Source of the DNA: Christiangramia sediminis
GTDB lineage: Bacteria; Bacteroidota; Bacteroidia; Flavobacteriales; Flavobacteriaceae
Length of the DNA: 64,000 nt
Direction: 5' to 3'
Assembly (NCBI RefSeq): GCF_020552705.1
Contig: NZ_JAJBZG010000002.1
Location: 186,001 to 250,000 of the forward strand
Positions 38,387 through 49,522 of the stretch are shown here, in pieces. Position 1 is the stretch's first letter; the number at the start of each line of letters is the position of its first letter. The notes below the pieces were generated by a model. That model was not told the DNA's origin, ran no database searches, and saw only the letters and a program-made list of their open reading frames with translations. Both the position numbers and the translations under genes were made by a program.

Positions 38387-38433
38387 AGACAGCTGCCTCC
38401 TGCAAGATTGATCTTCAGGAGGCATGTCTTTTT
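38387..38433 (+). terminator. Terminator of the leu operon
   Basis: An AGACA-TGCCTCCTG / CAGGAGGCA-TGTCT stem with a 13-base loop and five Ts, 21 bases after the leuB stop. The T-tract touches the stop codon of the convergent argH. Confidence 0.9.
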
Positions 38434-39709
38434 AAAGCTGTTGAAGTTTATTCTTTATCATATTCAGCGAAAGATTGTCTTTACTTCCAGAATGTGAATG
38501 TTGCATTCCTTCGGTAGCTTCATATTTGCCATTTTGAATCTGCTCCCCTATTATTTTATAGGCATCCCTGAATGACTTCCCCTGTAATACCAACTCATTA
38601 ATACTATCTACGGTAAACAAGTATTTATATTTTTCATCCTTTAGGTCTACTTCCTTCACTTTTATCTGGGCGATGGAATGGGTAAAAACATCCAGTATCT
38701 CCTTTATATTCTCTACCGCGTAAATACTATTCTCTTTTATAAGCTGAAAATCCCTATGGTAACCACTAGGAAGATTATTAGTGATCAAAATCATTTCATT
38801 CGCGATCGCCTGAAGCTTATTACATTTCCCTCTGATCAGTTCAAAAACGTCAGGATTCTTTTTATGCGGCATAATGCTGGAACCGGTGGTTAACTCATCG
38901 GGGAAGGTAATAAAATCAAAATTCTGACTCATATACAGGCAGATATCCATAGCAAATCTTGAAAGAGTATTGGCTAAAGAAGCGATATTTGAAGTTACCG
39001 TCCGTTCACATTTCCCCCTGCTCATTTGCGCAGCCACCACATTAAATTTCTGAGTTGAAAAGCCCAGTTCCTGAGTAGTAAACTCTCTATCTATTGGAAA
39101 AGATGAACCATATCCCGCTGCCGACCCTAAAGGATTCTGGTCAACGATCTTTAAGCCTGCATCAAGTAAGTATAGGTCATCGATTAGCAATTCGGCATAA
39201 GCTGAAAACCATAGTCCGAAAGAGGATGGCATGGCTACCTGCAGATGAGTATAGCCCGGAAGTAACTTTTCTTTATGCTCATCAGCCAGACCTAAAAGCA
39301 CATCGATAAGTGCCTTTGTTTTTCCGGAGATCTGCTGGAGGTTATTCTTGAAATACAATTGCTGGGCCACTAAAACCTGGTCGTTTCTTGAGCGGGCCGT
39401 ATGTATCTTCTTTCCAGTATCGCCAAGTTTTTTAGTGAGTTCAAATTCTATTTTAGAATGAACATCTTCAAAATCTTCCTCAATATGAAATTCTCCTTTT
39501 TCAAGCTGACCTTTCAATTTATCCAATTCAGAAAGTAAAGCTTCCACTTCCGCATTATTCAATATTCCGATTTTCCCGAGCATTTTTGCATGCGCTTTGG
39601 AAGCCTGAATATCATATTCGGCCAGGTGCATATCCAGTTCGCGGTCATTGCCTACAGTGAACTTTTCTATCTGTTTATCTATTGAAATACCTTTATCCCA
39701 GAGTTTCAT
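38432..39709 (-). CDS. argH: Argininosuccinate lyase
   Basis: ArgH splits argininosuccinate to arginine and fumarate, the final step. The 425-residue protein has the superfamily signature TTGSSIMPHKKNPDVFELIRGK and an active-site region TARSRNDQVLVAQQLYF with GYTHLQVAMPSSFG. It is the last gene of the arginine run. A 147-base gap to argE contains a family-A repeat. Confidence 0.96.
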   Translation of the reverse strand: MKLWDKGISIDKQIEKFTVGNDRELDMHLAEYDIQASKAHAKMLGKIGILNNAEVEALLSELDKLKGQLEKGEFHIEEDFEDVHSKIEFELTKKLGDTGKKIHTARSRNDQVLVAQQLYFKNNLQQISGKTKALIDVLLGLADEHKEKLLPGYTHLQVAMPSSFGLWFSAYAELLIDDLYLLDAGLKIVDQNPLGSAAGYGSSFPIDREFTTQELGFSTQKFNVVAAQMSRGKCERTVTSNIASLANTLSRFAMDICLYMSQNFDFITFPDELTTGSSIMPHKKNPDVFELIRGKCNKLQAIANEMILITNNLPSGYHRDFQLIKENSIYAVENIKEILDVFTHSIAQIKVKEVDLKDEKYKYLFTVDSINELVLQGKSFRDAYKIIGEQIQNGKYEATEGMQHSHSGSKDNLSLNMIKNKLQQL

Positions 39710-39728
39710 ATTTTCTTGTTTTTGTTGG

Positions 39729-39801
39729 TGTCATTCCGAAAGAGTTTACGACTGAGGAATCTTAGATTTCTCACTTCGCTGTGCTACGTTTCGAAATGAC
39801 A
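39729..39801. repeat. Interspersed imperfect palindromic repeat (family A)
   Basis: Ends TGTCATTCCGAA and TTCGAAATGACA form terminal inverted repeats around a core GACTGAGGAATCTTAGATTTC. Close copies are at 41724-41785 and 42755-42816, partial ones at 19906-19938 and 55181-55238. A different unit (CGCACTTCGACAGGCTCAGTGCG) follows at about 39812-39842. Confidence 0.85.
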
Positions 39802-39856
39802 TTTTTCATACTTTTCTGTCGCACTTCGACAGGCTCAGTGCGGCATCCTTAGTTTG

Positions 39857-40927
39857 CTATTTCTTAAGCGCTTTCTCCAGCAGTTTTATATATTTTTCTA
39901 TTCCTTCCTCGATCTCATTTATATAAATAAATTCATCTGCCGAATGCGACCTGGTAGAATCACCTGGGCCTAATTTCAAGGACGGACAACTTAACATCGC
40001 CTGATCTGAAAGTGTTGGTGAACCATACGTTTTCATACCAATATCAATTCCCGCTTTCACCAGTTCGTGATCGATTGGAATTGAAGATGAATTCAATCGT
40101 AAACTCCTGGCAGTGATCTCATCAACCGGAGCTTTTTCATTTAGAATTTTCTCAATTTCCGCGTTAGTATATTTATCATTCACCCGAACATCGATCACCA
40201 GGTGCGTTTTTGCCGGTACTACATTATGCTGACTGCCCGCATTAATCTGGGTCACGGTTACTTTTACCTCTCCCAGATTTTCTGAAACCTTTTCCAATTT
40301 AAAATTTTCGAACCATTCCAGAACTTTAGCAGTTTTATAGATCGAATTATCAGTATTCGGATGGGCGGCATGCGAAGGAGTTCCTTTTACAACGGCATCG
40401 AAGACAATCAGGCCCTTTTCAGCAATTGCAAGATTCATCAACGTGGGTTCTCCTATGATAGCCACATCTATTTTGGGAATTTCCGGTAGTAAGGCGGCAA
40501 TGCCATTTTTTCCATTAATCTCCTCTTCCGCAGTTCCCGAAAAGAGAATATTATGAGTTAAATTTTCTTCTGAATATAAATAAGTGAATACAGCCAAAAG
40601 GGAAATAAGACATCCGCCGGCATCGTTACTACCTAAGCCGTATAATTTACCAGTTTCGATCTCTGCCTTAAATGGATCCCTGGTATAGGCTGAATTTGGT
40701 TTAACGGTATCGTGATGCGAATTCAACAAAAGCGTAGGCTTAGATTCATCAAAATTCTTATTGACCGCCCAAACGTTATTTAAAAACCTCTTATGCGGAA
40801 TTTTATGTTCCCTGAACCATTTTTCCAGAAGGTCGGCAGTTTTATTCTCTTCACCGGAAAATGACTGAGTCTGGATCAGGTTTTTCAGTAATTCAATGGC
40901 TTGTTGCTGAAGTTCTTTTAACCGCAT
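39857..40927 (-). CDS. argE: N-acyl-ornithine/citrulline deacylase, M20 family (ArgE-like)
   Basis: The 356-residue M20 metallohydrolase has LLNSHHDTVKP (metal His and Asp), GLGSNDAGGCLISL, SGTAEEEINGKNG (catalytic Glu pair) and a C-terminal HSADEFIYINE with a metal His. In an arginine operon without ornithine acyltransferase (argJ) and with an acylornithine carbamoyltransferase, its substrate is probably N-acyl-citrulline rather than N-acetylornithine (inference). It overlaps argB by one base. Confidence 0.88.
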   Translation of the reverse strand: MRLKELQQQAIELLKNLIQTQSFSGEENKTADLLEKWFREHKIPHKRFLNNVWAVNKNFDESKPTLLLNSHHDTVKPNSAYTRDPFKAEIETGKLYGLGSNDAGGCLISLLAVFTYLYSEENLTHNILFSGTAEEEINGKNGIAALLPEIPKIDVAIIGEPTLMNLAIAEKGLIVFDAVVKGTPSHAAHPNTDNSIYKTAKVLEWFENFKLEKVSENLGEVKVTVTQINAGSQHNVVPAKTHLVIDVRVNDKYTNAEIEKILNEKAPVDEITARSLRLNSSSIPIDHELVKAGIDIGMKTYGSPTLSDQAMLSCPSLKLGPGDSTRSHSADEFIYINEIEEGIEKYIKLLEKALKK

Positions 40928-41703
40928 TACTTTAAAATTTTAGTATGTATTGAATCTTCTTTCAACAAAGAAGCATCTCCCAGAATCACCTTAGAAACTC
41001 CACGCTTGATGGCTTCAAAACAATTATGAAGTTTCGGAAGCATTCCATCGGTGATCACTTTTGAAGCTACCAGATTATTATAATTTTCAGAATTCAATTC
41101 AGAAATCAACGAGGTTTCATCTGAGATATCGGTTAAAACTCCTTTCTTTTCTAAACAGAAATAGAGCTGAGTTTCATAAAACTTGCTCATAGCAATCGCG
41201 ATCTCTGAAGCTACAGAATCTCCATTGGTATTCAGCAAAATCCCATCTTCAGTACATGATATTGCCGAAAATACCGGAACAATTTGCTGCATCAGAAGTG
41301 AATCTATAAATTCTGTATTTACATGATCTATATCGCCAACAAATCCGTAATCTATATCTTTAACTTCTCTGAGTTTTGAGATCAGGACGTTTCCATCTGC
41401 TCCGCAAAGTCCAATGGCATTTTGCTTTTTCGATTGAAGCTTTGCCACGATACTTTTGTTTAAAAGTCCACCATAAACCATCGTGATCACTTCCATAGAA
41501 TTCTTATCTGTGATTCTTCTTCCATCGATCATTTTGGTTTCAAAACCGAGTTTCCCGGCTACCTCGGTAGCTTTATTACCTCCACCATGCACGAGGATCT
41601 TCGGACCTTTCATTTGAACGAAATCTTCCAGAAAGGAATTCAGGAAAGCTTCATTTTCGATAAGCTTACCTCCTATTTTTATTATTTTCAGGGTTTGTTT
41701 CAT
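40927..41703 (-). CDS. argB: N-acylglutamate kinase
   Basis: The 258-residue amino-acid kinase has KIIKIGGKLIENEAFL, ILVHGGGNKATEVAGKLG, LCGADGN, LNTNGDSVASEIAIAM and a C-terminal TDGMLPKLHNCFEAIKRGVSKV. It phosphorylates N-acetyl- or N-succinyl-glutamate. The frame extends upstream to an ATG at 41790, but that extension translates a family-A repeat (VISNAVRNL), so the ATG at 41703 is used. Confidence 0.93.
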   Translation of the reverse strand: MKQTLKIIKIGGKLIENEAFLNSFLEDFVQMKGPKILVHGGGNKATEVAGKLGFETKMIDGRRITDKNSMEVITMVYGGLLNKSIVAKLQSKKQNAIGLCGADGNVLISKLREVKDIDYGFVGDIDHVNTEFIDSLLMQQIVPVFSAISCTEDGILLNTNGDSVASEIAIAMSKFYETQLYFCLEKKGVLTDISDETSLISELNSENYNNLVASKVITDGMLPKLHNCFEAIKRGVSKVILGDASLLKEDSIHTKILK

Positions 41704-41723
41704 TTTCAACTTTTCATTCCAGA

Positions 41724-41785
41724 TGTGATTCCGAAGGAGTTCACGACTGAGGAATCTCAGATTTCTCACTGCGTTCGAAATGACA
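41724..41785. repeat. Interspersed imperfect palindromic repeat (family A)
   Basis: Same core as the 39729-39801 copy (ATTCCGAAGGAGTTCACGAC, then GAGGAATCTCAGATTTC, then TTCGAAATGACA), filling the gap between argB and the carbamoyltransferase gene. Confidence 0.85.
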
Positions 41786-41790
41786 TTCAA

Positions 41791-42741
41791 TTATTCCTTT
41801 CTACACTCCAGTATTCTCTTCAAAACCGCCTGTGCAGCATAGGTCCTGTTATTCGCCTGCTGAATCACAATTGAATTTTCGCTATCCAGGACATTATCTG
41901 CAATTACCACATTTCGTCTTACCGGAAGGCAATGCATCACTTTCGCATTATTGGTATTTTTCAATTTAGCCTGGTTAACGGTCCAGTTTTCTTTAATATC
42001 CAGAATCTGACCGTAATTCTCATAACTACTCCAGTTCTTAACATACACGAAATCTGCATCTTTAAATGCTTTTTCCTGGTCATGTTCCACCTTTACATCC
42101 TTCCTGATATCAGGATCCAGATCATATCCTTCAGGATTGGTGATCACAAAATCAACATCCAGGCGCTGCATCATTTCTGTAAAAGAATTCGCAACAGATT
42201 GTGGTAAAGCTTTTGGATGCGGCGCCCAGCTCAAAACAACTTTAGCCTTTTCAGCTTTATTGAATTCCTGAATTGTCATAGCATCGGTTAAAGCCTGCAA
42301 CGGATGACCGGTTGCACTTTCCAGATTTACCACCGGAACTGAAGCATATTTTTTAAAACTATTAAGTACATATTCAGATTCGTCCTTTTCTTTATCCTTT
42401 AAACCCGGAAACGCCCTAACCGCAATGATATCGCAATACTGAGAAAGCACTGCCGCCGCTTCTTTTATATGTTCGGCTTTATCAGAATTCATTATTGCCC
42501 CATCCTCAAATTCCAAAGCCCAGCCATCTTTATCGGCATTCATCACCATCACCTCCATACCCAATAACTTCGCAGCTTTTTCAGTGCTTAACCTGGTGCG
42601 TAAACTGGGATTAAAAAAGAGCATCCCCAAGGTTTTTCCTTTTCCCGTATTGGATGCGGTGTTTTTAGATTTTAAACTTCTGGCTTCTCCAATCAGACCA
42701 TCGAGATCATGGATGTCTGCTAATGTGGTATAATTTTTCAT
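41791..42741 (-). CDS. argF': N-acylornithine carbamoyltransferase (SOTCase/AOTCase type)
   Basis: The 316-residue protein is a transcarbamylase (FFNPSLRTRLSTEKAA for carbamoyl phosphate; MHCLPVRRNVVIADNVLDS). It resembles the N-succinylornithine enzyme of Bacteroides (SWAPHPKALPQSVANSF, NPEGYDLDP, YGQILDIKENWTV) more than ornithine carbamoyltransferase. The residue separating acetyl (Glu, Xanthomonas) from succinyl (Pro, Bacteroides) specificity is Ala89 here (NSDKAEHIKE), so the acyl group is uncertain. It makes N-acyl-citrulline. Confidence 0.9.
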   Translation of the reverse strand: MKNYTTLADIHDLDGLIGEARSLKSKNTASNTGKGKTLGMLFFNPSLRTRLSTEKAAKLLGMEVMVMNADKDGWALEFEDGAIMNSDKAEHIKEAAAVLSQYCDIIAVRAFPGLKDKEKDESEYVLNSFKKYASVPVVNLESATGHPLQALTDAMTIQEFNKAEKAKVVLSWAPHPKALPQSVANSFTEMMQRLDVDFVITNPEGYDLDPDIRKDVKVEHDQEKAFKDADFVYVKNWSSYENYGQILDIKENWTVNQAKLKNTNNAKVMHCLPVRRNVVIADNVLDSENSIVIQQANNRTYAAQAVLKRILECRKE

Positions 42742-42754
42742 TTATTTCCTTTTT

Positions 42755-42816
42755 TGTCATTCCGAAGAAGTTTGCGACTGAGGAATCTTAGATTTCTCAC
42801 TTCGTTCGAAATGACA
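42755..42816. repeat. Interspersed imperfect palindromic repeat (family A)
   Basis: The cleanest copy: TGTCATTCCGAA ... GACTGAGGAATCTTAGATTT ... TTCGAAATGACA. It is directly followed by a family-B repeat. Confidence 0.88.
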
Positions 42817-42834
42817 TTCCCTTTCTTTTATTTT

Positions 42835-42892
42835 TCGTCAAGCTGAACTCGTTTCAGCTTCTCTAGAGATCCTGAAACAAGTTCAGGATGAC
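42835..42892. repeat. Interspersed imperfect palindromic repeat (family B)
   Basis: TCGTCAAGCTGAACTCGTTT, then AGCTTCTCTAGAGATCCTGA, then GTTCAGGATGAC. Ends are inverted (GTCAAGCTGAACT / AGTTCAGGATGAC). Copies at 44850-44900 (decayed) and 47113-47171. Confidence 0.8.
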
Positions 42893-44031
42893 CTCGTAAC
42901 TTGATTTTTTAATACTTTTTTCAACGTCTCAAAGAAAATTTCAAAATGTTCCTTTTTAATATTCAATGGTGGCAGAATTCTAAGCAGTTTCTTATTTGAG
43001 GATGCTCCGGTAAAGATTTGGTGTTCAAATAGCAATTCCTTTCTTAGGGCAGCGATTTCAAAATCGAATTCCAAACCAATCATCAAGCCTCTTCCTTTGA
43101 TCTTTTTAATTTCTGAAATTTTCGAAGCTTCTGCCATTACAAATTCTGAAACAATCGCGGCATTTTCCATCAAATTCTCCTCCTTAATAATATTTAGGAC
43201 AGAAATTCCCGCAGCACAGGCAAGGTGATTTCCACCGAAAGTAGTACCCAGCATGCCATATTTCGGCGGAATATGGTTATCGATCAGAATTCCTCCAGTA
43301 GGGAATCCGTTACCCATTCCTTTGGCCATGGTTATAATATCCGGACGAATTCCATGTTTCTGAAAGGCAAAGAAATCACCGGTTCTTCCGTAACCCGACT
43401 GTACCTCATCAGTGATTAACATCACTTTATTTTCTTTACATAATTCGGCTGCCCGCTTATAAAAATCAGCTTCAGCTTCATCCAGTCCACCAACGCCCTG
43501 TATCACTTCAAAAATAACCGCGGCTACATTCCCTTTTTCGATCTCCATTTTCAAAGATTCAGTATCATTAAAAGCTAATTTCGTTACTTTATGAAAATTA
43601 TTAAAAGGAGCTTTTATAGACTCATTATCGGTGATCGCCACTACGCCGGAAGTTCTTCCGTGGAAAGCATTCTCAAAATAAATGACCCTGTCCTTTCCGG
43701 TTTGAAAAGAGGCCACTTTTAAGGCATTTTCATTCGCTTCAGCCCCCGAACTGCATAAAAACAGGCTGTAATCTTTGATACCTGAGATTTTCTCCAGTTT
43801 ATCGGCCAGTTCCTGCTGTAAAGGATTTTTTATAGAATTTGAATAAAAACCAAGTTTCGCCACCTGATCCTGAATCGCTTTCACATATTCCGGATGCGCA
43901 TGACCAACAGAAATCACCGCATGACCCCCATAGAGATCCAGGTATTTTTTTCCGTTTTCATCAAAAACATAGCAACCATCTCCTTTCACCGGAGTAATAT
44001 CATAAAGCGGATAAACGTCGAATAACTCCAT
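42883..44031 (-). CDS. argD: Acylornithine aminotransferase
   Basis: The 382-residue class-III PLP aminotransferase has YLDLYGGHAVISVGHAHPEY, FLCSSGAEANENALKVA, FENAFHGRTSG, LITDEVQSGYGRTGDFFAF, and the PLP-lysine region PDIITMAKGMGNGFPTGGIL. It transaminates N-acyl-glutamate semialdehyde to N-acyl-ornithine. It lies 2 bases after proC; its last codons run into the family-B repeat. Confidence 0.95.
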   Translation of the reverse strand: MELFDVYPLYDITPVKGDGCYVFDENGKKYLDLYGGHAVISVGHAHPEYVKAIQDQVAKLGFYSNSIKNPLQQELADKLEKISGIKDYSLFLCSSGAEANENALKVASFQTGKDRVIYFENAFHGRTSGVVAITDNESIKAPFNNFHKVTKLAFNDTESLKMEIEKGNVAAVIFEVIQGVGGLDEAEADFYKRAAELCKENKVMLITDEVQSGYGRTGDFFAFQKHGIRPDIITMAKGMGNGFPTGGILIDNHIPPKYGMLGTTFGGNHLACAAGISVLNIIKEENLMENAAIVSEFVMAEASKISEIKKIKGRGLMIGLEFDFEIAALRKELLFEHQIFTGASSNKKLLRILPPLNIKKEHFEIFFETLKKVLKNQVTRSS

Positions 44032-44033
44032 AA

Positions 44034-44828
44034 TTACTGTTCTGAAATGTTATTGATTTTTTTGAAGGATGCCTGAATCCCTTTAATAAGTGAAGAACTG
44101 AGTCCATTATGTTCCATTTCGTTAAGTCCTTCGATAGTGCAACCACGTGGCGTAGTTACCTTGTCGATCTCTTCTTCGGGATGTTTGCCCGACTCAATTA
44201 ATAAACTCGCGGCACCCAGGCAGGTTTGCATAGAGAGTTCCTGAGCGTCTTTCGCGTCAAAACCGAGTTGTACCGCCCCCTGGGTGGTTGCTCGTATCAA
44301 ACGCATCCAGAAAGCCACTCCACTGGCGCAGATCACGGTAGCCGCCTGCATCTTATTTTCAGGAATGATGATACTGGTGCCTAATCGGTTGAAAATAGCT
44401 TCTGCGATAGCGATCCTTTTTTTTCCTATTTCATTATTGCAAAGACAGGTCATAGATTTACCCACGGCGATCGCAGTATTCGGCATAGATCTGATGATGA
44501 AATGATGCTCACCTACGATACTTTCCATTCGTGGGATTTTGAATCCGGTGACCGTAGAGATCAACACATGCTTATCGGTGAGTTCATTTTTGATCTCCTC
44601 CAGGATCCGTTCAAATTGTGTGGGTTGCACTGCGAAGATTAGAATATCAGAATTTTTTACCGCATCCGGGTTATTGGAAGTGATCGTCACTTTATTATAT
44701 TCCGAAAACTCCTGAATGTCTTCGGTTTTCCTTTTGGTAAGATACAACGTGGTAAAAGCATTGCTAAAGATCAATCCCTTCGCAATGGAAACTCCCAGAT
44801 TTCCCGCGCCGATAATTGCTATTTTCAT
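44034..44828 (-). CDS. proC: Pyrroline-5-carboxylate reductase
   Basis: The 264-residue protein has an N-terminal NAD(P)-binding loop IIGAGNLGVSIAKGLI, the strand VKNSDILIFAVQP, MPNTAIAVGKSMT, and the C-terminal signature TTPRGCTIEGLNEMEHNGL. It makes proline from pyrroline-5-carboxylate. Its position inside the arginine run, between argC and argD, links proline and arginine supply from glutamate/ornithine. Confidence 0.93.
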   Translation of the reverse strand: MKIAIIGAGNLGVSIAKGLIFSNAFTTLYLTKRKTEDIQEFSEYNKVTITSNNPDAVKNSDILIFAVQPTQFERILEEIKNELTDKHVLISTVTGFKIPRMESIVGEHHFIIRSMPNTAIAVGKSMTCLCNNEIGKKRIAIAEAIFNRLGTSIIIPENKMQAATVICASGVAFWMRLIRATTQGAVQLGFDAKDAQELSMQTCLGAASLLIESGKHPEEEIDKVTTPRGCTIEGLNEMEHNGLSSSLIKGIQASFKKINNISEQ

Positions 44829-44849
44829 TTTCCTATAATTTTATTTAAT

Positions 44850-44941
44850 CCGTCAAGCTAAATTTATTTCAGCTTCTCTGAGATCCTGAAATTCGTGTAG
44901 TTTCAAATAAGACCTCACAGGTTTTGAAATCCTGTAAGGTT
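44850..44941. repeat. Decayed family-B repeat followed by a separate hairpin repeat
   Basis: CGTCAAGCTAAATTTATTTC...GAGATCCTGAAATT (44850-44900) is a decayed family-B copy. Next to it, ACCTCACAGG and CCTGTAAGGT (about 44912-44940) form a stem around TTTTGAAAT, a second repeat type, sitting just before the proC start and after argC's stop at 44945. Confidence 0.6.
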
Positions 44942-44944
44942 TCC

Positions 44945-45910
44945 TTAAAAATAACTGGCTTTTAAATTCAGTCCCATTTTTTCTTCCAGGCCAAACATTA
45001 AATTCATATTCTGAACTGCCTGTCCCGAAGCTCCTTTTAATAAATTATCCATCACACTGGTGATTAATAAGTTATCCCCAAATTTTTGTAATCTCATCAA
45101 ACATTTGTTTGTATTCACCACCTGCTTTAAATGCAATTCTTCCTCAGTTACAAACGTGAAAGCCGCGTCATTATAAAATTCCTGGTAGAGCTTTCTCGCT
45201 TCTCCTAGGTCTGCGGAAAACTTAGTATAAGCAGTCGCATGTATTCCTCTGGAAAAGTTCCCGCGATTCGGAATAAAATTGATAGCCGCTTCATGATCTG
45301 CCTGCAACTGTTTTAAACTCTGGCCAATTTCGTGCAGGTGCTGATGTTCAAATGATTTATAGGCTGAAAAATTATTATCTCTCCAGGAAAAATGTGTGGT
45401 TTCAGATAGCGAAGTTCCAGCCCCTGTTGCTCCTGTTACAGCATTTACATGAACTTCGTCTTTCAAAATGCTATTTTTGGCCAACGGGAGAATTGCCAGA
45501 GTGATCGCCGTGGCAAAACAACCCGGGTTTCCGATGAAATTAGCCTTTTTGATGTGATCTTTATTTAGTTCAGGCAAACCATACACGAAATCATGATCTT
45601 CAGATTTTTGTCTGAAATCGGTGCTTAGATCTACAATTTTCGTCTTTTCTGAAAATTGATTTTCTGCGAGGAACTTTTTAGAGTTTCCGTGGCCGAGACA
45701 AAGGAAGATAACATCAGCTTCGCTATTAATCTTATCGGTAAACTTAATCTCAGTTTCTCCAATCAAATCCTGATGAATACTACTTAATGGTTTTCCAGGT
45801 TGTGAAGTGCTGAAAACGAAATTCAGATGCACTTCCGGATGATTTAGTAAAATTCTGATCAATTCCCCGGCAGTATAACCTGCTCCGCCAATGATTCCTG
45901 CTTCGATCAT
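44945..45910 (-). CDS. argC: N-acyl-gamma-glutamyl-phosphate reductase
   Basis: The 321-residue protein has GIIGGAGYTAGELIRIL, FLCLGHGNSKKFL, and the active-site NPGCFATAITLAILPL with the catalytic Cys, plus NAVTGATGAGTS. It reduces acylglutamyl phosphate to the semialdehyde. It is shorter than the long-type E. coli ArgC. Its start overlaps the argG stop by 4 bases. Confidence 0.95.
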   Translation of the reverse strand: MIEAGIIGGAGYTAGELIRILLNHPEVHLNFVFSTSQPGKPLSSIHQDLIGETEIKFTDKINSEADVIFLCLGHGNSKKFLAENQFSEKTKIVDLSTDFRQKSEDHDFVYGLPELNKDHIKKANFIGNPGCFATAITLAILPLAKNSILKDEVHVNAVTGATGAGTSLSETTHFSWRDNNFSAYKSFEHQHLHEIGQSLKQLQADHEAAINFIPNRGNFSRGIHATAYTKFSADLGEARKLYQEFYNDAAFTFVTEEELHLKQVVNTNKCLMRLQKFGDNLLITSVMDNLLKGASGQAVQNMNLMFGLEEKMGLNLKASYF

Positions 45911-47094
45911 GATTCCTGATTTACATGTTGATAGATCTTTCCAGAATTTGAAAGGATCTTAATAAATCCTTTAACCTCATCTGCCGTCCAGGCTTTATTT
46001 TCCTCACCGTAATTTCCGAAACTACTATTCATAAGATCATTTGGAGATTTGATTCCGTCTAAAGTAAATCTGTATGGATGCAGCGTAACAAAAACATCGC
46101 CAGTAACCTTGTTCTGGGAACTTTGGAGTTGCGCTTCGAAATCCCGCATCACCGGATCCAGATACAAACCTTCATGCAGGTGCATACCATACCAATTTGA
46201 TGTATAATCTTTATGCTGAAGCTGCCATTTGCTAAGCGTATGCTTTTCAAGTAAATGGTGCGCTTTTATGGTTATTAGCGCCGCTGCAGCTTCAAAACCA
46301 ACCCGTCCTTTAATCCCGATAATGGTATCTCCCACGTGAATATCCCGGCCAATGGCGTATTTTGAGGCTATTCTTTCCAAAATTTCGATATTTTTCTCAG
46401 GTGAATTCTGCTCATCATCGATAGCCGTAAATTCTCCTTTGGTAAAACCCAATTTAACCTGTTTTGACTCGATTTCATTTAACTGTGAAGGATATGCAGA
46501 TTCTGGTAAAGGTTTATCTGAAGTCAGCGTTTCTGCTCCTCCCACACTGGTTCCCCAAAGTCCTTTATTTATTGAATATTTGGCTTTTTCCCAGTTCATT
46601 TCGACACCTTTACTTGTGAGGTATTCGATCTCTTCCTGCCTGCTTAATTGCTTATCTCTAATTGGGGTGATGATCTTAATTTCAGGAGCAATTATCTGGA
46701 AGATCATATCGAATCTTACCTGGTCGTTTCCTGCACCGGTACTGCCGTGAGCGATATATCCAGCGCCAACCTTTTTAGCATAATTTACAATTTCAATGGC
46801 CTGAATGATCCTTTCGGCACTAACGGATAAAGGGTAGGTATCGTTCTTCAAAACATTTCCGAAGATGAGATATTTCACCACCTTTTGATAAAAGGAAGAA
46901 ATGGCATCGATATTATTATAACTGCTTGCTCCTATCTTTTTGGCATTATCGCCAATCTTCTGAATCTCGTCCTTTGAAAATCCACCGGTATTTACACTCA
47001 CGGCATGAACTTCAAAACCTTCTTCTTCCGATAAATATTTCGCGCAGTAAGAGGTGTCCAGACCTCCGCTATATGCTATAACTACTTTTTTCAT
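45907..47094 (-). CDS. argG: Argininosuccinate synthase
   Basis: ArgG joins citrulline and aspartate using ATP. The 395-residue protein has the PP-loop start VIAYSGGLDTSYCAKYLSEE, YIAHGSTGAGNDQVRFD and INKGLWGTSVGG, which are family signatures. It follows the GNAT gene after a 177-base gap that contains repeats, and precedes argC with overlap. Confidence 0.96.
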   Translation of the reverse strand: MKKVVIAYSGGLDTSYCAKYLSEEEGFEVHAVSVNTGGFSKDEIQKIGDNAKKIGASSYNNIDAISSFYQKVVKYLIFGNVLKNDTYPLSVSAERIIQAIEIVNYAKKVGAGYIAHGSTGAGNDQVRFDMIFQIIAPEIKIITPIRDKQLSRQEEIEYLTSKGVEMNWEKAKYSINKGLWGTSVGGAETLTSDKPLPESAYPSQLNEIESKQVKLGFTKGEFTAIDDEQNSPEKNIEILERIASKYAIGRDIHVGDTIIGIKGRVGFEAAAALITIKAHHLLEKHTLSKWQLQHKDYTSNWYGMHLHEGLYLDPVMRDFEAQLQSSQNKVTGDVFVTLHPYRFTLDGIKSPNDLMNSSFGNYGEENKAWTADEVKGFIKILSNSGKIYQHVNQES

Positions 47095-47271: not shown

Positions 47272-47910
47272 TTATTTTTCAGCCTTTTCCTTTTTATAAA
47301 AAAGCGTTTGTTTAATATGTTTTAATCTCTGGAATGCCTTTTCGTTGAATTTACTTTTAGGCTTTTCAACTTTTTTGGTTTCTCTCTTTTTCGCAGGATC
47401 ATATAACATCCCTGTACACAAACACATTTTGTGATCTGTCCTGGTAAGCACATCGTAATTCTTACAGGTCTGGCAGCCTTTCCAGAAAGATTCATCATCG
47501 GTAAGTTCAGAGAAAGTGACCGGTTGATATCCAAGATCATAATTGATCTTCATCACCGCCAAACCGGTAGTGATCCCAAAGATCTTTGCCTCGGGATATT
47601 TAGTTCTGGAATGCTCAAAAATGACATTTTTGATCTCCTTGGCCAGTCCCTGATTTCTGAAATCGGGATGCACGATGAGCCCGGAATTAGCCACATACTT
47701 ATCATGGCTCCAGGTTTCTATGTAACAGAAACCGGCAAATTTTTCACCATCCAGAGCGATCACGGCATTTCCCTTCTCCATCTTATTGATAATATATTCA
47801 GGAGTTCTGCGCGCGATCCCAGTACCACGGACCTTTGCCGACTCTTCTATAGTATTACAAATGATCTCAGCGCAAGAAGCATGAGATTTATTAGCAATGA
47901 GAATTTTCAT
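47272..47910 (-). CDS. GNAT acyltransferase heading the arginine operon (probable N-acylglutamate synthase)
   Basis: The 212-residue protein has a GNAT core (AVIALDGEKFAGFCYIETW; SGLIVHPDFRNQGLAKEIK with the acetyl-CoA loop; IFGITTGLAVMKINYDLGYQPV) and a C-terminal Cys-rich segment (GCQTCKNYDV, HKMCLCTGML) that could bind zinc, plus a Lys-rich tail. As first gene of an arginine operon without argA or argJ it is the natural candidate for glutamate N-acylation, the entry step. That role is inferred from position only. Confidence 0.8.
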   Translation of the reverse strand: MKILIANKSHASCAEIICNTIEESAKVRGTGIARRTPEYIINKMEKGNAVIALDGEKFAGFCYIETWSHDKYVANSGLIVHPDFRNQGLAKEIKNVIFEHSRTKYPEAKIFGITTGLAVMKINYDLGYQPVTFSELTDDESFWKGCQTCKNYDVLTRTDHKMCLCTGMLYDPAKKRETKKVEKPKSKFNEKAFQRLKHIKQTLFYKKEKAEK

Positions 47911-47961: not shown

Positions 47962-48080
47962 CGGAACCGGACTCACCTAAGTTCCATAGATATATTGACG
48001 CACTTACGTGCGACGGGGGAAACTGCGGCGCATAGGAGAAATATCAGAAAATGTCCTGATATTAAGTTTGTATTCTATGC
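47962..48080 (-). ncRNA. Structured 5' leader segment of the arginine operon
   Basis: Downstream of the attenuator, the leader folds into several perfect stems: GCATAG/CTATGC (48075-48080 with 48030-48035) enclosing AATATCAG/CTGATATT (48056-48063 with 48040-48047); CGCAC-GTAA-GTGCG with a GNRA-type loop on the minus strand (47999-48012); and GGAAC/GTTCC (47981-47985 with 47963-47967). It is much richer in G+C than nearby gaps. Whether it belongs to the arg mRNA or is a separate RNA is unclear. Confidence 0.4.
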
Positions 48081-48101
48081 TGTTTAAGTAATTCAAAGTG
48101 G

Positions 48102-48191
48102 AAAAAAATCAAATAATATTAATAGAAAATCGTTTCAGGGCCAACCGACTAGAAGCGGCGGGGCCTAAAATTGAAACGGGGTAATATTATT
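48102..48191 (-). terminator. Attenuator hairpin of the arginine operon
   Basis: On the minus strand the outer arms AATAATATTA (48191-48182) and TAATATTATT (48121-48112) are a perfect 10 bp; inner arms CGTTTCA (48178-48172) and TGAAACG (48137-48131) a perfect 7 bp; a small GGCC/GGCC and CCG/CGG core follows. The stem is followed by TTTGATTTTTTT (48102-48108 is the 7-T run). The 5' arms lie inside the Arg-rich leader peptide, so a ribosome stalled on Arg codons would block folding. It would also stop read-through from ilvA. Confidence 0.65.
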
Positions 48192-48208
48192 TGTCTGATA
48201 GAAATCAT
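48149..48208 (-). CDS. argL: Arginine operon leader peptide (19 residues)
   Basis: The mini-ORF encodes MISIRQIILPRFNFRPRRF: five Arg in nineteen residues (positions 5, 11, 15, 17, 18), by codons AGA, CGT, AGG, CGC, CGC. It starts ATGATTT like the leu and ilv leaders. A TACATTTG -7 box ends only 4 bases before the ATG, so the mRNA should be leaderless or nearly so. Its codons 6-12 form the 5' arms of the attenuator. The GNAT-argG operon starts about 240 bases downstream. Confidence 0.72.
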   Translation of the reverse strand: MISIRQIILPRFNFRPRRF

Positions 48209-48212
48209 GTTA

Positions 48213-48240
48213 CAAATGTATACAAATTTTTAATTCACAG
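48213..48240 (-). promoter_or_regulatory. Promoter of the arginine operon
   Basis: TACATTTG (48220-48213) fits the -7 consensus; CTG at 48240-48238 is a weak -33 with 17-base spacing. It lies directly after the ilvA stop codon (48248), so the arg operon has its own promoter. The start point should fall at about 48209-48206, at the leader-peptide ATG. Confidence 0.55.
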
Positions 48241-48247
48241 GTATTTA

Positions 48248-49522
48248 CTAGATCAAAAATTGAAATAAATTTGGATTATTGTTTAAATATTCCCCGTAGA
48301 AATTTCTCTTTTTCATCCTGTCTACCAATGGTTCGAAGTCATTGGGATCTTTTAATTCGATACCCACAACCGCAGGACCGTTAGACCTGTTGTGCTTTTT
48401 AGAGTATTCGAAATGGGTAATATCATCATTAGGCCCAAGAACTTTTGCTACAAATTCCTTTAAGGCACCTGCTCTCTGCGGAAAAACCACCACGAAATAA
48501 TGCTTCAAACCTGAATAAAGCAAAGCTCTCTCCTTGATCTCTGCCATTCTGATTATGTCATTATTGCTGCCACTAACAATGCAAACCACATTCTTCCCTT
48601 TTATCTTTTCAGCATAAAAATCTAAAGCAGAAATCGCCATAGCTCCTGCGGGCTCTACGACCATAGCATCCTGATTATAAAGATCCAGAATGGTCTGGCA
48701 GATCTTACCTTCAGGAACCGTGATCATTTCGTCAAGATTCTCTTTACAAATGGAAAAATTTCTTGTTCCTACCTTCTGCACCGAAGCACCGTCAACAAAC
48801 CTTTCGATATTATCCAGCTCTACCACTCTACCCTCTTTTAAGGAAGTTTTCATGGAAGGTGCACCCTGAGGTTCTATACCTATAATTTTCGTGTTCGGCG
48901 ACAACTCCTTAAACATAGAAGAAATACCTGCCAAAAGTCCACCACCGCCCAGGGGAGCGAAAATATAATCTATAGGCTCATCTGCCTGCTCCAGGATCTC
49001 CAAGGCAATAGTCGCCTGGCCCTCGATCACTTTTTCATCATCGAAGGGATGAATAAAAACAAGACCCTGTTCATGCATGCGTTTCATGGCACTTTTAAAG
49101 GAATCATCATAGGTGTCACCCTTTAAAACCACTTCAACCCATTCCCCGCCAAACATTTGAGTTTGCTCTACTTTTTGCTGCGGTGTTGTACCAGGCATAT
49201 AAATCACTCCTTTCACCCTCAGTTTATTACAGGCGAAAGCCACGCCCTGTGCATGATTCCCGGCACTGGCGCAAATAACTCCTTTTTCAAGCTGTTCCTT
49301 CGGAAGGCTGGAAATCTTATTATACGCCCCCCGAATTTTGTACGATCTCACCTGTTGCAGATCTTCCCGCTTCAGCATGACATTGGCCTCAAAGCGTTTG
49401 CTATAAGTGAAAGATTCGGCTAAAGGAGTTCTTAAAACTACTTTAGAAATTCGTTCTGAAGCCTGTTTAACGGCTTCGAGACTCGGTTTGTATATTTTTT
49501 CTTTTTCCAGCAAAGTATCCAT
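48248..49522 (-). CDS. ilvA: Threonine ammonia-lyase
   Basis: IlvA deaminates threonine to 2-oxobutanoate for isoleucine. The 424-residue PLP enzyme has REDLQQVRSYKIRGAYNKI with the PLP lysine, ASAGNHAQGVAFAC, PLGGGGLLAGIS and CIVSGSNNDI. One C-terminal ACT-like segment (KHYFVVVFPQRAGALKEFVAKVLGPNDDITHFEYSKK) is present, the short-form regulatory domain. It shares one base with ilvC and is last in the ilv operon. Confidence 0.95.
   Translation of the reverse strand: MDTLLEKEKIYKPSLEAVKQASERISKVVLRTPLAESFTYSKRFEANVMLKREDLQQVRSYKIRGAYNKISSLPKEQLEKGVICASAGNHAQGVAFACNKLRVKGVIYMPGTTPQQKVEQTQMFGGEWVEVVLKGDTYDDSFKSAMKRMHEQGLVFIHPFDDEKVIEGQATIALEILEQADEPIDYIFAPLGGGGLLAGISSMFKELSPNTKIIGIEPQGAPSMKTSLKEGRVVELDNIERFVDGASVQKVGTRNFSICKENLDEMITVPEGKICQTILDLYNQDAMVVEPAGAMAISALDFYAEKIKGKNVVCIVSGSNNDIIRMAEIKERALLYSGLKHYFVVVFPQRAGALKEFVAKVLGPNDDITHFEYSKKHNRSNGPAVVGIELKDPNDFEPLVDRMKKRNFYGEYLNNNPNLFQFLI

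Follow-up and report, generated by a model that had tools for sequence, protein, structure and literature searches.

Tandem arginine-rich reading frames and conserved hairpins before the arginine operon of Christiangramia sediminis look like a switch that reads arginine supply

Introduction

How does a member of the Flavobacteriaceae adjust its arginine (arg) operon to arginine supply, and what part is played by a short arginine-rich open reading frame (ORF) upstream whose own codons pair into a hairpin? The question is raised by a stretch of 64,000 nucleotides (nt) of Christiangramia sediminis DNA (NCBI RefSeq assembly GCF_020552705.1, contig NZ_JAJBZG010000002.1, positions 186,001 to 250,000 of the forward strand; hereafter the window, numbered from its first letter), in which a first-pass annotation had proposed a compact, one-hairpin attenuator. 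The answer offered here is that a conserved arginine leader is real, and that it is a variant of leader-peptide control for which no description in this phylum was found among the titles and abstract openings of open-licence literature, searched with narrow terms. Its tandem arginine ORFs and conserved hairpins look like an undescribed switch reading arginine supply, the functional steps of which we infer. On the minus strand ORF1 and hairpin P1 come first, then ORF2 and hairpins H1 and H2, and then a GNAT acetyltransferase gene; the features of the leader, in order of transcription, are:

48213..48220, minus strand: predicted sigma-A -7 box, TACATTTG, ending 4 nt upstream of the ORF1 ATG
48149..48208, minus strand: ORF1, a 19-codon leader peptide with five arginines, MISIRQIILPRFNFRPRRF and stop, predicted to be leaderless
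48182..48193, minus strand: 5' arm of P1, CAAATAATATTA, formed by codons 6-9 of ORF1
48172..48178 with 48131..48137, minus strand: inner stem of 7 base pairs (bp), CGTTTCA/TGAAACG, its 5' arm in codons 11-13
48110..48121, minus strand: 3' arm of P1, TAATATTATTTG, ending 13 nt upstream of the ORF2 start codon
48102..48108, minus strand: run of seven T after P1, a possible terminator tail in C. sediminis
48004..48096, minus strand: ORF2, the second arginine leader, with a TTG start at 48096, MNYLNSIEYKLNIRTFSDISPMRRSFPRRT and stop
48041..48062, minus strand: hairpin H0 in ORF2, upstream of its terminal arginine codons
47999..48012, minus strand: hairpin H1, CGCAC-GUAA-GUGCG, whose loop holds the ORF2 stop codon (48004-48006)
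47963..47985, minus strand: hairpin H2, GGAACUUAGGUGAGUCCGGUUCC, with a near-invariant core and a covarying stem

Two arginine-rich leaders in series

Are both short ORFs genuine? Sequence comparison marks ORF1 and ORF2 as arginine-rich coding sequences. What lies between the P1 hairpin and the GNAT gene had been overlooked by the first-pass annotation; the second leader ORF and its further hairpins, conserved more widely than ORF1, leave neither 'compact' nor 'one-hairpin' as a fitting description. The test of ORF2 used a frame set by H1, not by openness, and covered 153 of 157 aligned elements, with L007, L161, L162 and L164 omitted as H1 or H2 was not matched by the search pattern. That frame is open over 25 codons in 148 of the 153 loci, against 26 and 40 in the remaining frames, and its last ten codons hold 4.04 arginines against 0.37 and 0.15 in the others; nine of the ten hold 3.04, the tenth (CGC) being fixed by the search pattern. 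The stop codon falls within the H1 loop in 134 of 153 loci, at 26-28 nt from the H2 core in 118 of those 134. The peptide ends RRP-stop in 125 of 153, and some members of the C. sediminis clade end RRT-stop or extend beyond H1 (RRTFVRV-stop). Folding of the H0 region is favoured (mean z -1.25 over the 153 loci; z < -1 in 56%). Where two leaders are present ORF2 has 30-31 codons in 61 of 68 loci. At loci without a detected ORF1 (n=78) an in-frame ATG lies 18-37 codons upstream of H1 in 64, ORF2 having 26-27 codons in 35 of these 64 and the distance from the TTT of the -7 box to the ATG being 7-9 nt in 37 of them. At such loci H1 and H2 must work without P1.

ORF1, whose arginine codons are in order AGA, CGT, AGG, CGC and CGC, has counterparts at 78 of the 157 aligned loci (own locus counted), typically 19-24 codons long, with a gap of 5-6 nt from the TTT of the -7 box to the start in 53 of the 78. 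These are what is left of 82 permissive calls once L109, L131, L167 and L172 had been removed by eye as likely false; L122 stays among them though it is doubtful and looks false, and a stricter finder gave the 71 loci used for the ORF1 codon count. The 78 may also be an undercount, an arginine-containing ORF standing at the same place in L005 and its Zunongwangia relatives, scored as lacking ORF1. In Flavobacterium psychrophilum the TAnnTTTG box of sigma-A occupies positions -12 to -5 (PMC9723704); with a box so spaced, 4 nt further on is the A of the AUG, so that ORF1 is predicted to be leaderless.

The pairing of the ORF1 codons is, on aligned sequences, both kept and covarying among near relatives. 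The outer stem of P1 comprises 12 bp, closing C-G pair included, and the 93-nt hairpin region and a 151-nt region have folding z of -4.69 and -2.88, with 0 of 200 shuffles equally stable in each case. When the C. sediminis sequence is aligned with those of 21 relatives (22 in all), 94.3% of P1 cells are paired, 4 of 12 pairs have changed on both sides, and covariation is 0.123 against 0.056 in shuffles, 0 of 500 of which reach it. Over 77 loci the early codons of ORF1 pair with their own downstream stretch at -10.15 kcal/mol against -7.51 with those of unlike loci, both sides being given equal window freedom, and own-locus pairing exceeds the cross-locus mean in 66 of the 77.

Much of the first-pass annotation thus survives. 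Its 19-codon mini-ORF with five arginine codons, its promoter box 4 nt before the ATG and its seven-T run after the hairpin all lie where it had placed them; the apparently leaderless start is borne out as a prediction, the spacing of the sigma-A box putting the transcript start on the AUG; and its assignment of an arginine-codon leader to the arg operon is supported. The hairpin exists as well, with an outer stem of 12 rather than the 10 bp given, and with the 7-bp inner stem present in competition with a different inner stem, which the minimum-energy fold chooses; the 5' arms do lie in ORF1 codons, at 6-9 (outer) and 11-13 (inner) in place of 6-12. Looked for in relatives, the absence of which would have told against the first-pass annotation, the arginine codons and the hairpin are both kept by the near relatives and by roughly half of all aligned loci (78/157).

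The conserved H1/H2 element

What is most strongly conserved? In 30 loci read by eye the best-conserved portion lies between the P1 hairpin and the GNAT gene, and H2 is present in all 30, in a variant form in two. The last arginine codon of ORF2 contributes to the 5' arm of H1, and H2 begins 13 nt past H1 in C. sediminis, a spacing that is near-fixed across loci. H2 itself, with the core AGGUGWGUCC, has a stem of 6 bp followed by a bulge, then two G-C pairs and the loop UGNGU, which over 153 loci reads UGAGU in 113, UGUGU in 30 and UGCGU in 10. In alignments of 100 and 57 elements, which were fitted to the covariance model and so are biased toward the structure, 97.4% and 97.1% of H1/H2 cells are paired, both-side changes affect 7 and 10 of 13 pairs, and covariation is 0.281 against 0.130 and 0.286 against 0.117 in shuffles, 0 of 500 reaching it in each. 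The signal collapses once the partner is slid. In an unfitted alignment matching compensatory changes can be seen by eye, and RNAalifold recovers no more than 6 pairs from it, its H2 stem being unaligned. In 6 of 153 loci, all within the C. sediminis clade, H1 has CGCAC rather than CGCCC and a 3' arm that matches it. Between the H2 core and the gene lie 59-114 nt at 28 exact-motif loci and above 200 nt in G152, a distance that speaks against plain masking of the gene start.

Separately, L194, L197 and L199 retain an H1-like hairpin with an H2 core diverged, by eye, to GGAUAUUCC- or CGGAUUCCG-like forms, a possible second H2 class.

Arginine codon choice

Which tRNA would such leaders read? CGY codons (CGU, CGC) make up 288 of 353 arginine codons in ORF1 (71 loci) and 601 of 720 in ORF2, the latter counted in the most arginine-rich frame, a choice that fails at a few loci (L027, L052, L136); in 15 window genes they are 30 of 159, AGA and AGG together accounting for 108 of the 159. 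Arginine makes up 0.22 of ORF1, which was found partly by its arginines, 0.16 of ORF2 and 0.029 of the genes. Over the 12 codons upstream of the H1 stem, 430 of 487 arginine codons are CGY. The codon immediately outside that stem encodes arginine in 143 of 153 loci, always as CGN and never as AGR, with its third base free. The CGC within H1 is constrained by pairing; ORF2 codons outside H1, and ORF1 codons outside the stems, are unconstrained. From this we infer that the sensor would be the tRNA reading CGU and CGC, and the CGN-only codon beside H1 favours tRNA over peptide sensing. The use of CGY in leaders against AGR in genes provides a natural test of codon-specific sensing.

Operon and distribution of the element

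The genes downstream of the leader, as named by Pfam (for GNAT) and by best NCBIfam matches (for the remainder), are:

47272..47910, minus strand: GNAT acetyltransferase gene, first of the arg operon, Pfam Acetyltransf_1 above cut-off
38432..47094, minus strand: remainder of the operon, argG, argC, proC, argD, acetylornithine carbamoyltransferase, argB, ArgE/DapE-type deacylase and argH, the matches of argG, argD and the ArgE/DapE-type deacylase being below their curated cut-offs

That the operon opens with the GNAT gene, argG coming second, is a correction to the first-pass annotation. Among titled contigs the closest GNAT proteins are in Christiangramia/Gramella (up to 96% identity), followed by Salegentibacter, Gillisia and Zunongwangia. 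Within the operon proC (44034-44828) has argC on one side and argD on the other. Upstream of the leader lies ilvA, whose stop codon is at 48248.

A covariance model of H1 and H2, built on 13 sequences, matches 180 of 299 family genomes, at a single place in each, and leaves 119 without a match; a GNAT search finds 197 of the 299. Lists compared by hand place element and GNAT together in 178 genomes, the element alone in 2 and GNAT alone in 19. In G084 and G152 a GNAT-unlike ORF comes after the element, with argG- and argC-like ORFs next, and retention of the element beside such a first gene indicates that it tracks the operon, not the GNAT gene; autoregulation by the GNAT protein through H2 was rejected on the same ground. 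At L287 and L288 the operon opens with an ORF of 194-197 amino acids unlike the GNAT query, and H1/H2 are retained.

Among 296 genomes of an order sample, 22 match at E <= 0.001, all of them Flavobacteriaceae; among 395 of a phylum sample, 21 match at E <= 0.01, of which 16 are Flavobacteriaceae; the other 5 lie outside the family at E 0.004-0.009, which is chance level for so many searches. No credible match was thus seen outside the family in these samples, whose outside-family share is unstated and for which the filters of large searches miss weak matches. Genus g128 lacks the element in every genome listed from the order and phylum samples. None of 4227 Rfam models matches the 64-kb window at gathering thresholds, and the sole match up to E 5 is IR_84, on the opposite strand and with 17 bits against 51. 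With one site per genome, one family, one pathway and no Rfam match, the element makes arg regulation testable in a large marine family.

Other arginine leaders are, to judge by their ORFs, present in the family: L189, L190 and L202 carry arginine-rich leader ORFs (ends RRRRCRE, RRRIRE and RRRLLA) upstream of GNAT with no match to the H1/H2 model. At L191, L194 and L199, GNAT loci again without a model match, diverged H1/H2-like hairpins can be seen by eye.

A second H2 in the C. sediminis genome was sought and rejected: the core occurs at 8 sites, against 6 in a reversed control, and the sole non-arg sites that fold the stem, L181 and L184, both lie inside long reading frames, the first with a Walker A-like GPPGTGKT and the second reading MFGTVNFPVYHQLDQMDCGPTCLK (both by eye). 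A nut-like boxA/boxB explanation of linker and H2 was likewise dropped, no linker motif being held in common, by eye, with pre-16S rRNA stretches of three relatives, on which the comparison was made as the own-genome 16S lies at a contig edge. Those stretches (L290-L295) do have in common a TTCATTGA(C/T)ATATTG-like motif.

P1 as terminator or gate

Does P1 end transcription, or does it control what follows? In the 78 ORF1 loci the 8 nt that follow the best stem contain 3.58 T against 3.40 regionally (p 0.58), with at least 5 T in 22 of the 78; enrichment is lacking there because in relatives the U-rich stretch is often the 3' arm itself. Past the ORF1 stop, a window with 6 T in 8 occurs in 76 of 78 loci against 58 expected from composition, and the longest T-run is 6.2 against 4.5. 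Start codons were then sought -5 to +24 nt from the 3' end of P1 in 74 loci, L122 and three more that lack an H1/H2 position being left out: 68 loci have one in the ORF2 frame, against 4 and 1 for the two other frames. P1 was located here, as in the tail test, by the best duplex, a method that prefers U-rich stretches. The intervening distance is 4-5 nt in 32 of the 68, and 13 nt in C. sediminis, and the adjoining starts are mostly weak (35 TTG, 21 GTG, 12 ATG). On anatomy alone, then, a stem built with the codons of one ORF adjoins the start codon of the next. A start codon beside P1 together with an unenriched tail leads us to think that the shared function of P1 is probably to control access to ORF2, termination being possible in C. 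sediminis; termination, which the first-pass annotation had proposed, is not supported as a shared mechanism by the 78 and 74 loci.

Discussion

How might these parts work together? The reading we prefer, to which we give an even chance, is an arginine-responsive leader of two leader peptides in series, acting through P1 and then through H1/H2. Were the tRNA-Arg that reads CGU and CGC poorly charged, a ribosome would stall in ORF1 and cover the 5' arm of P1, preventing P1; in C. sediminis transcription may then be spared ending at the seven-T run, and family-wide it is more probably the start region of ORF2 that would be opened. A ribosome stalled on the terminal CGY codons of ORF2 would in turn hold H1 open, and the arg operon would be expressed. 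When arginine is ample, ribosomes would finish, P1 and H1 would form, and H1 with H2 would hold the operon low, the candidate means being Rho, a pause, a bound protein or RNA decay. At single-leader loci ORF2 itself would begin within a few bases of the predicted start of the transcript, and H1/H2 would act alone.

Several observations weigh against this account. H2 is constant, but stalling would affect H1 alone, so that H2 needs a partner outside the model. Among the top covarying pairs of a mutual-information scan, in which search-pattern columns were conditioned and the variable ORF regions lacked a positional alignment, H1 pairs, H2 pairs and local pairs stand out and no alternative partner of H1 or H2 appears, so that a classical antiterminator switch is not seen. 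Structure after H2 is absent over the 153 loci (mean z +0.35), and no terminator was seen there; the stretch from ORF2 to the gene in C. sediminis folds ordinarily (z -1.52, 15 of 200 shuffles equally stable). The outermost H1 pair is unformed in 23 of 97 sequences of one alignment and 12 of 56 of the other, the innermost P1 pair in 8 of 21, and the ORF2 stop codon lies outside the H1 loop in 19 of 153 loci. The preference of the best-duplex method for U-rich stretches belongs here too, as do the U-tails: gone in L216, and weak in L209 and in several Salegentibacter, the compensatory changes of P1 being kept in L216 and L209.

These tails bear equally on a rival, classical transcription attenuation at ORF1, in which P1 and the inner stem would be an intrinsic terminator, stalling at arginine codons would give read-through, and ORF2, H1 and H2 would form a separate later layer. 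Such attenuation is possible, if doubtful. It would account for a T7 directly after a stable P1 fold in C. sediminis and for the excess of T-rich windows and longer T-runs past the ORF1 stop, and the same genome has a hisG leader that resembles standard leader attenuation; yet T after the best stem stands at the regional level, P1 is A-U rich with a 60-nt loop, unlike the genome's own his terminator, a simple terminator scan (restricted to loops of 3-8 nt) does not list it, and the U-tail is lost or weak in L216 and L209 though the compensatory changes persist. Far less probable still, and very unlikely, is that hairpin and T-run are merely the 3' terminator of an upstream ilv operon: at 7 of the 17 two-leader loci inspected the next ORF upstream runs the same way and ends like ilvA, but the hairpin overlaps an ORF with its own promoter box, and ORF1 is kept where the upstream neighbour is on the opposite strand (L006, L021) or is a different gene (L012, L019, L020, L029 and others).

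TnaC senses tryptophan on the ribosome, and by analogy the RRP-stop end of ORF2 might sense free arginine through nascent-peptide arrest, the ribosome stalled at the stop within H1 then being the repressing state. The frequency of that ending, the position of the stop in H1 and the near-constant 30-31 codons of ORF2 at two-leader loci all suit it. We nevertheless regard arrest as unlikely: part of the C. sediminis clade ends in RRT-stop or runs past H1, the stop lies elsewhere in 19 of 153 loci, and the CGN-only codon just outside H1 points to tRNA rather than peptide sensing. No more probable is that H1 and H2 are an RNA receptor specific to the arginine operon, one that would bind free arginine, charged tRNA-Arg or a protein dedicated to it and would be read out together with ORF2 translation; were it so, receptor and ORF1 would amount to a two-stage sensor of arginine combining peptide and RNA, a kind so far undescribed.

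Comparison with known systems

In trp and his attenuation the cognate operon is preceded by a short ORF with many codons for the amino acid that the operon makes, and hairpins overlap those codons. The arg leader is alike in its short arginine-rich ORFs before the arg operon and in hairpins that overlap their codons, and differs in having two leaders in series, a predicted leaderless start and an additional conserved H2, and in that no antiterminator was found in it and no terminator seen after ORF2. An ordinary form exists in the same genome, where the hisG leader (L286) reads MKKYTVHHHHFSTHAQARCM and stop, with HHHH, followed by a compact GC-rich hairpin and T6; leader-peptide control thus fits the organism, and the arg leader differs in form. 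In tandem-leader translation attenuation of the erm type, stalling in the first ORF frees the next start region, much as stalling in ORF1 would free that of ORF2; in the arg leader, unlike the erm type, amino-acid codons take the place of the drug, and the gated unit would be a second leader, not a resistance gene. With the stem of the first adjoining the start codon of the second, it is a natural test of serial leader peptides. TnaC, SpeFL and the fungal arginine attenuator are arrest peptides. Like them, ORF2 is a short leader whose stop codon could hold a ribosome; it departs from them in that its terminal proline and stop are not kept in part of the C. sediminis clade and that its arginine codon choice suggests tRNA sensing.

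Closest in kinship are the structured 5' regions of F. psychrophilum, of the same family and likewise with leader peptides before amino-acid operons: the available portion of that study gives clues to leader-peptide attenuation upstream of such operons, arg being unnamed there, and lists pheA, hisG, ftsY, acsA, alaS and rimP as structured elements common to other genera (PMC9723704). Small ORFs reminiscent of leader peptides occur in 5' untranslated regions of Bacteroides thetaiotaomicron, according to PMC7366714. Finally, sinR of Bacillus subtilis offers codon-specific sensing of serine (PMC3862929); the arg leader would share with it the use of synonymous codon choice as an amino-acid sensor, with the difference that the sensing of sinR sits in a repressor gene and that of the arg case in a leader peptide.
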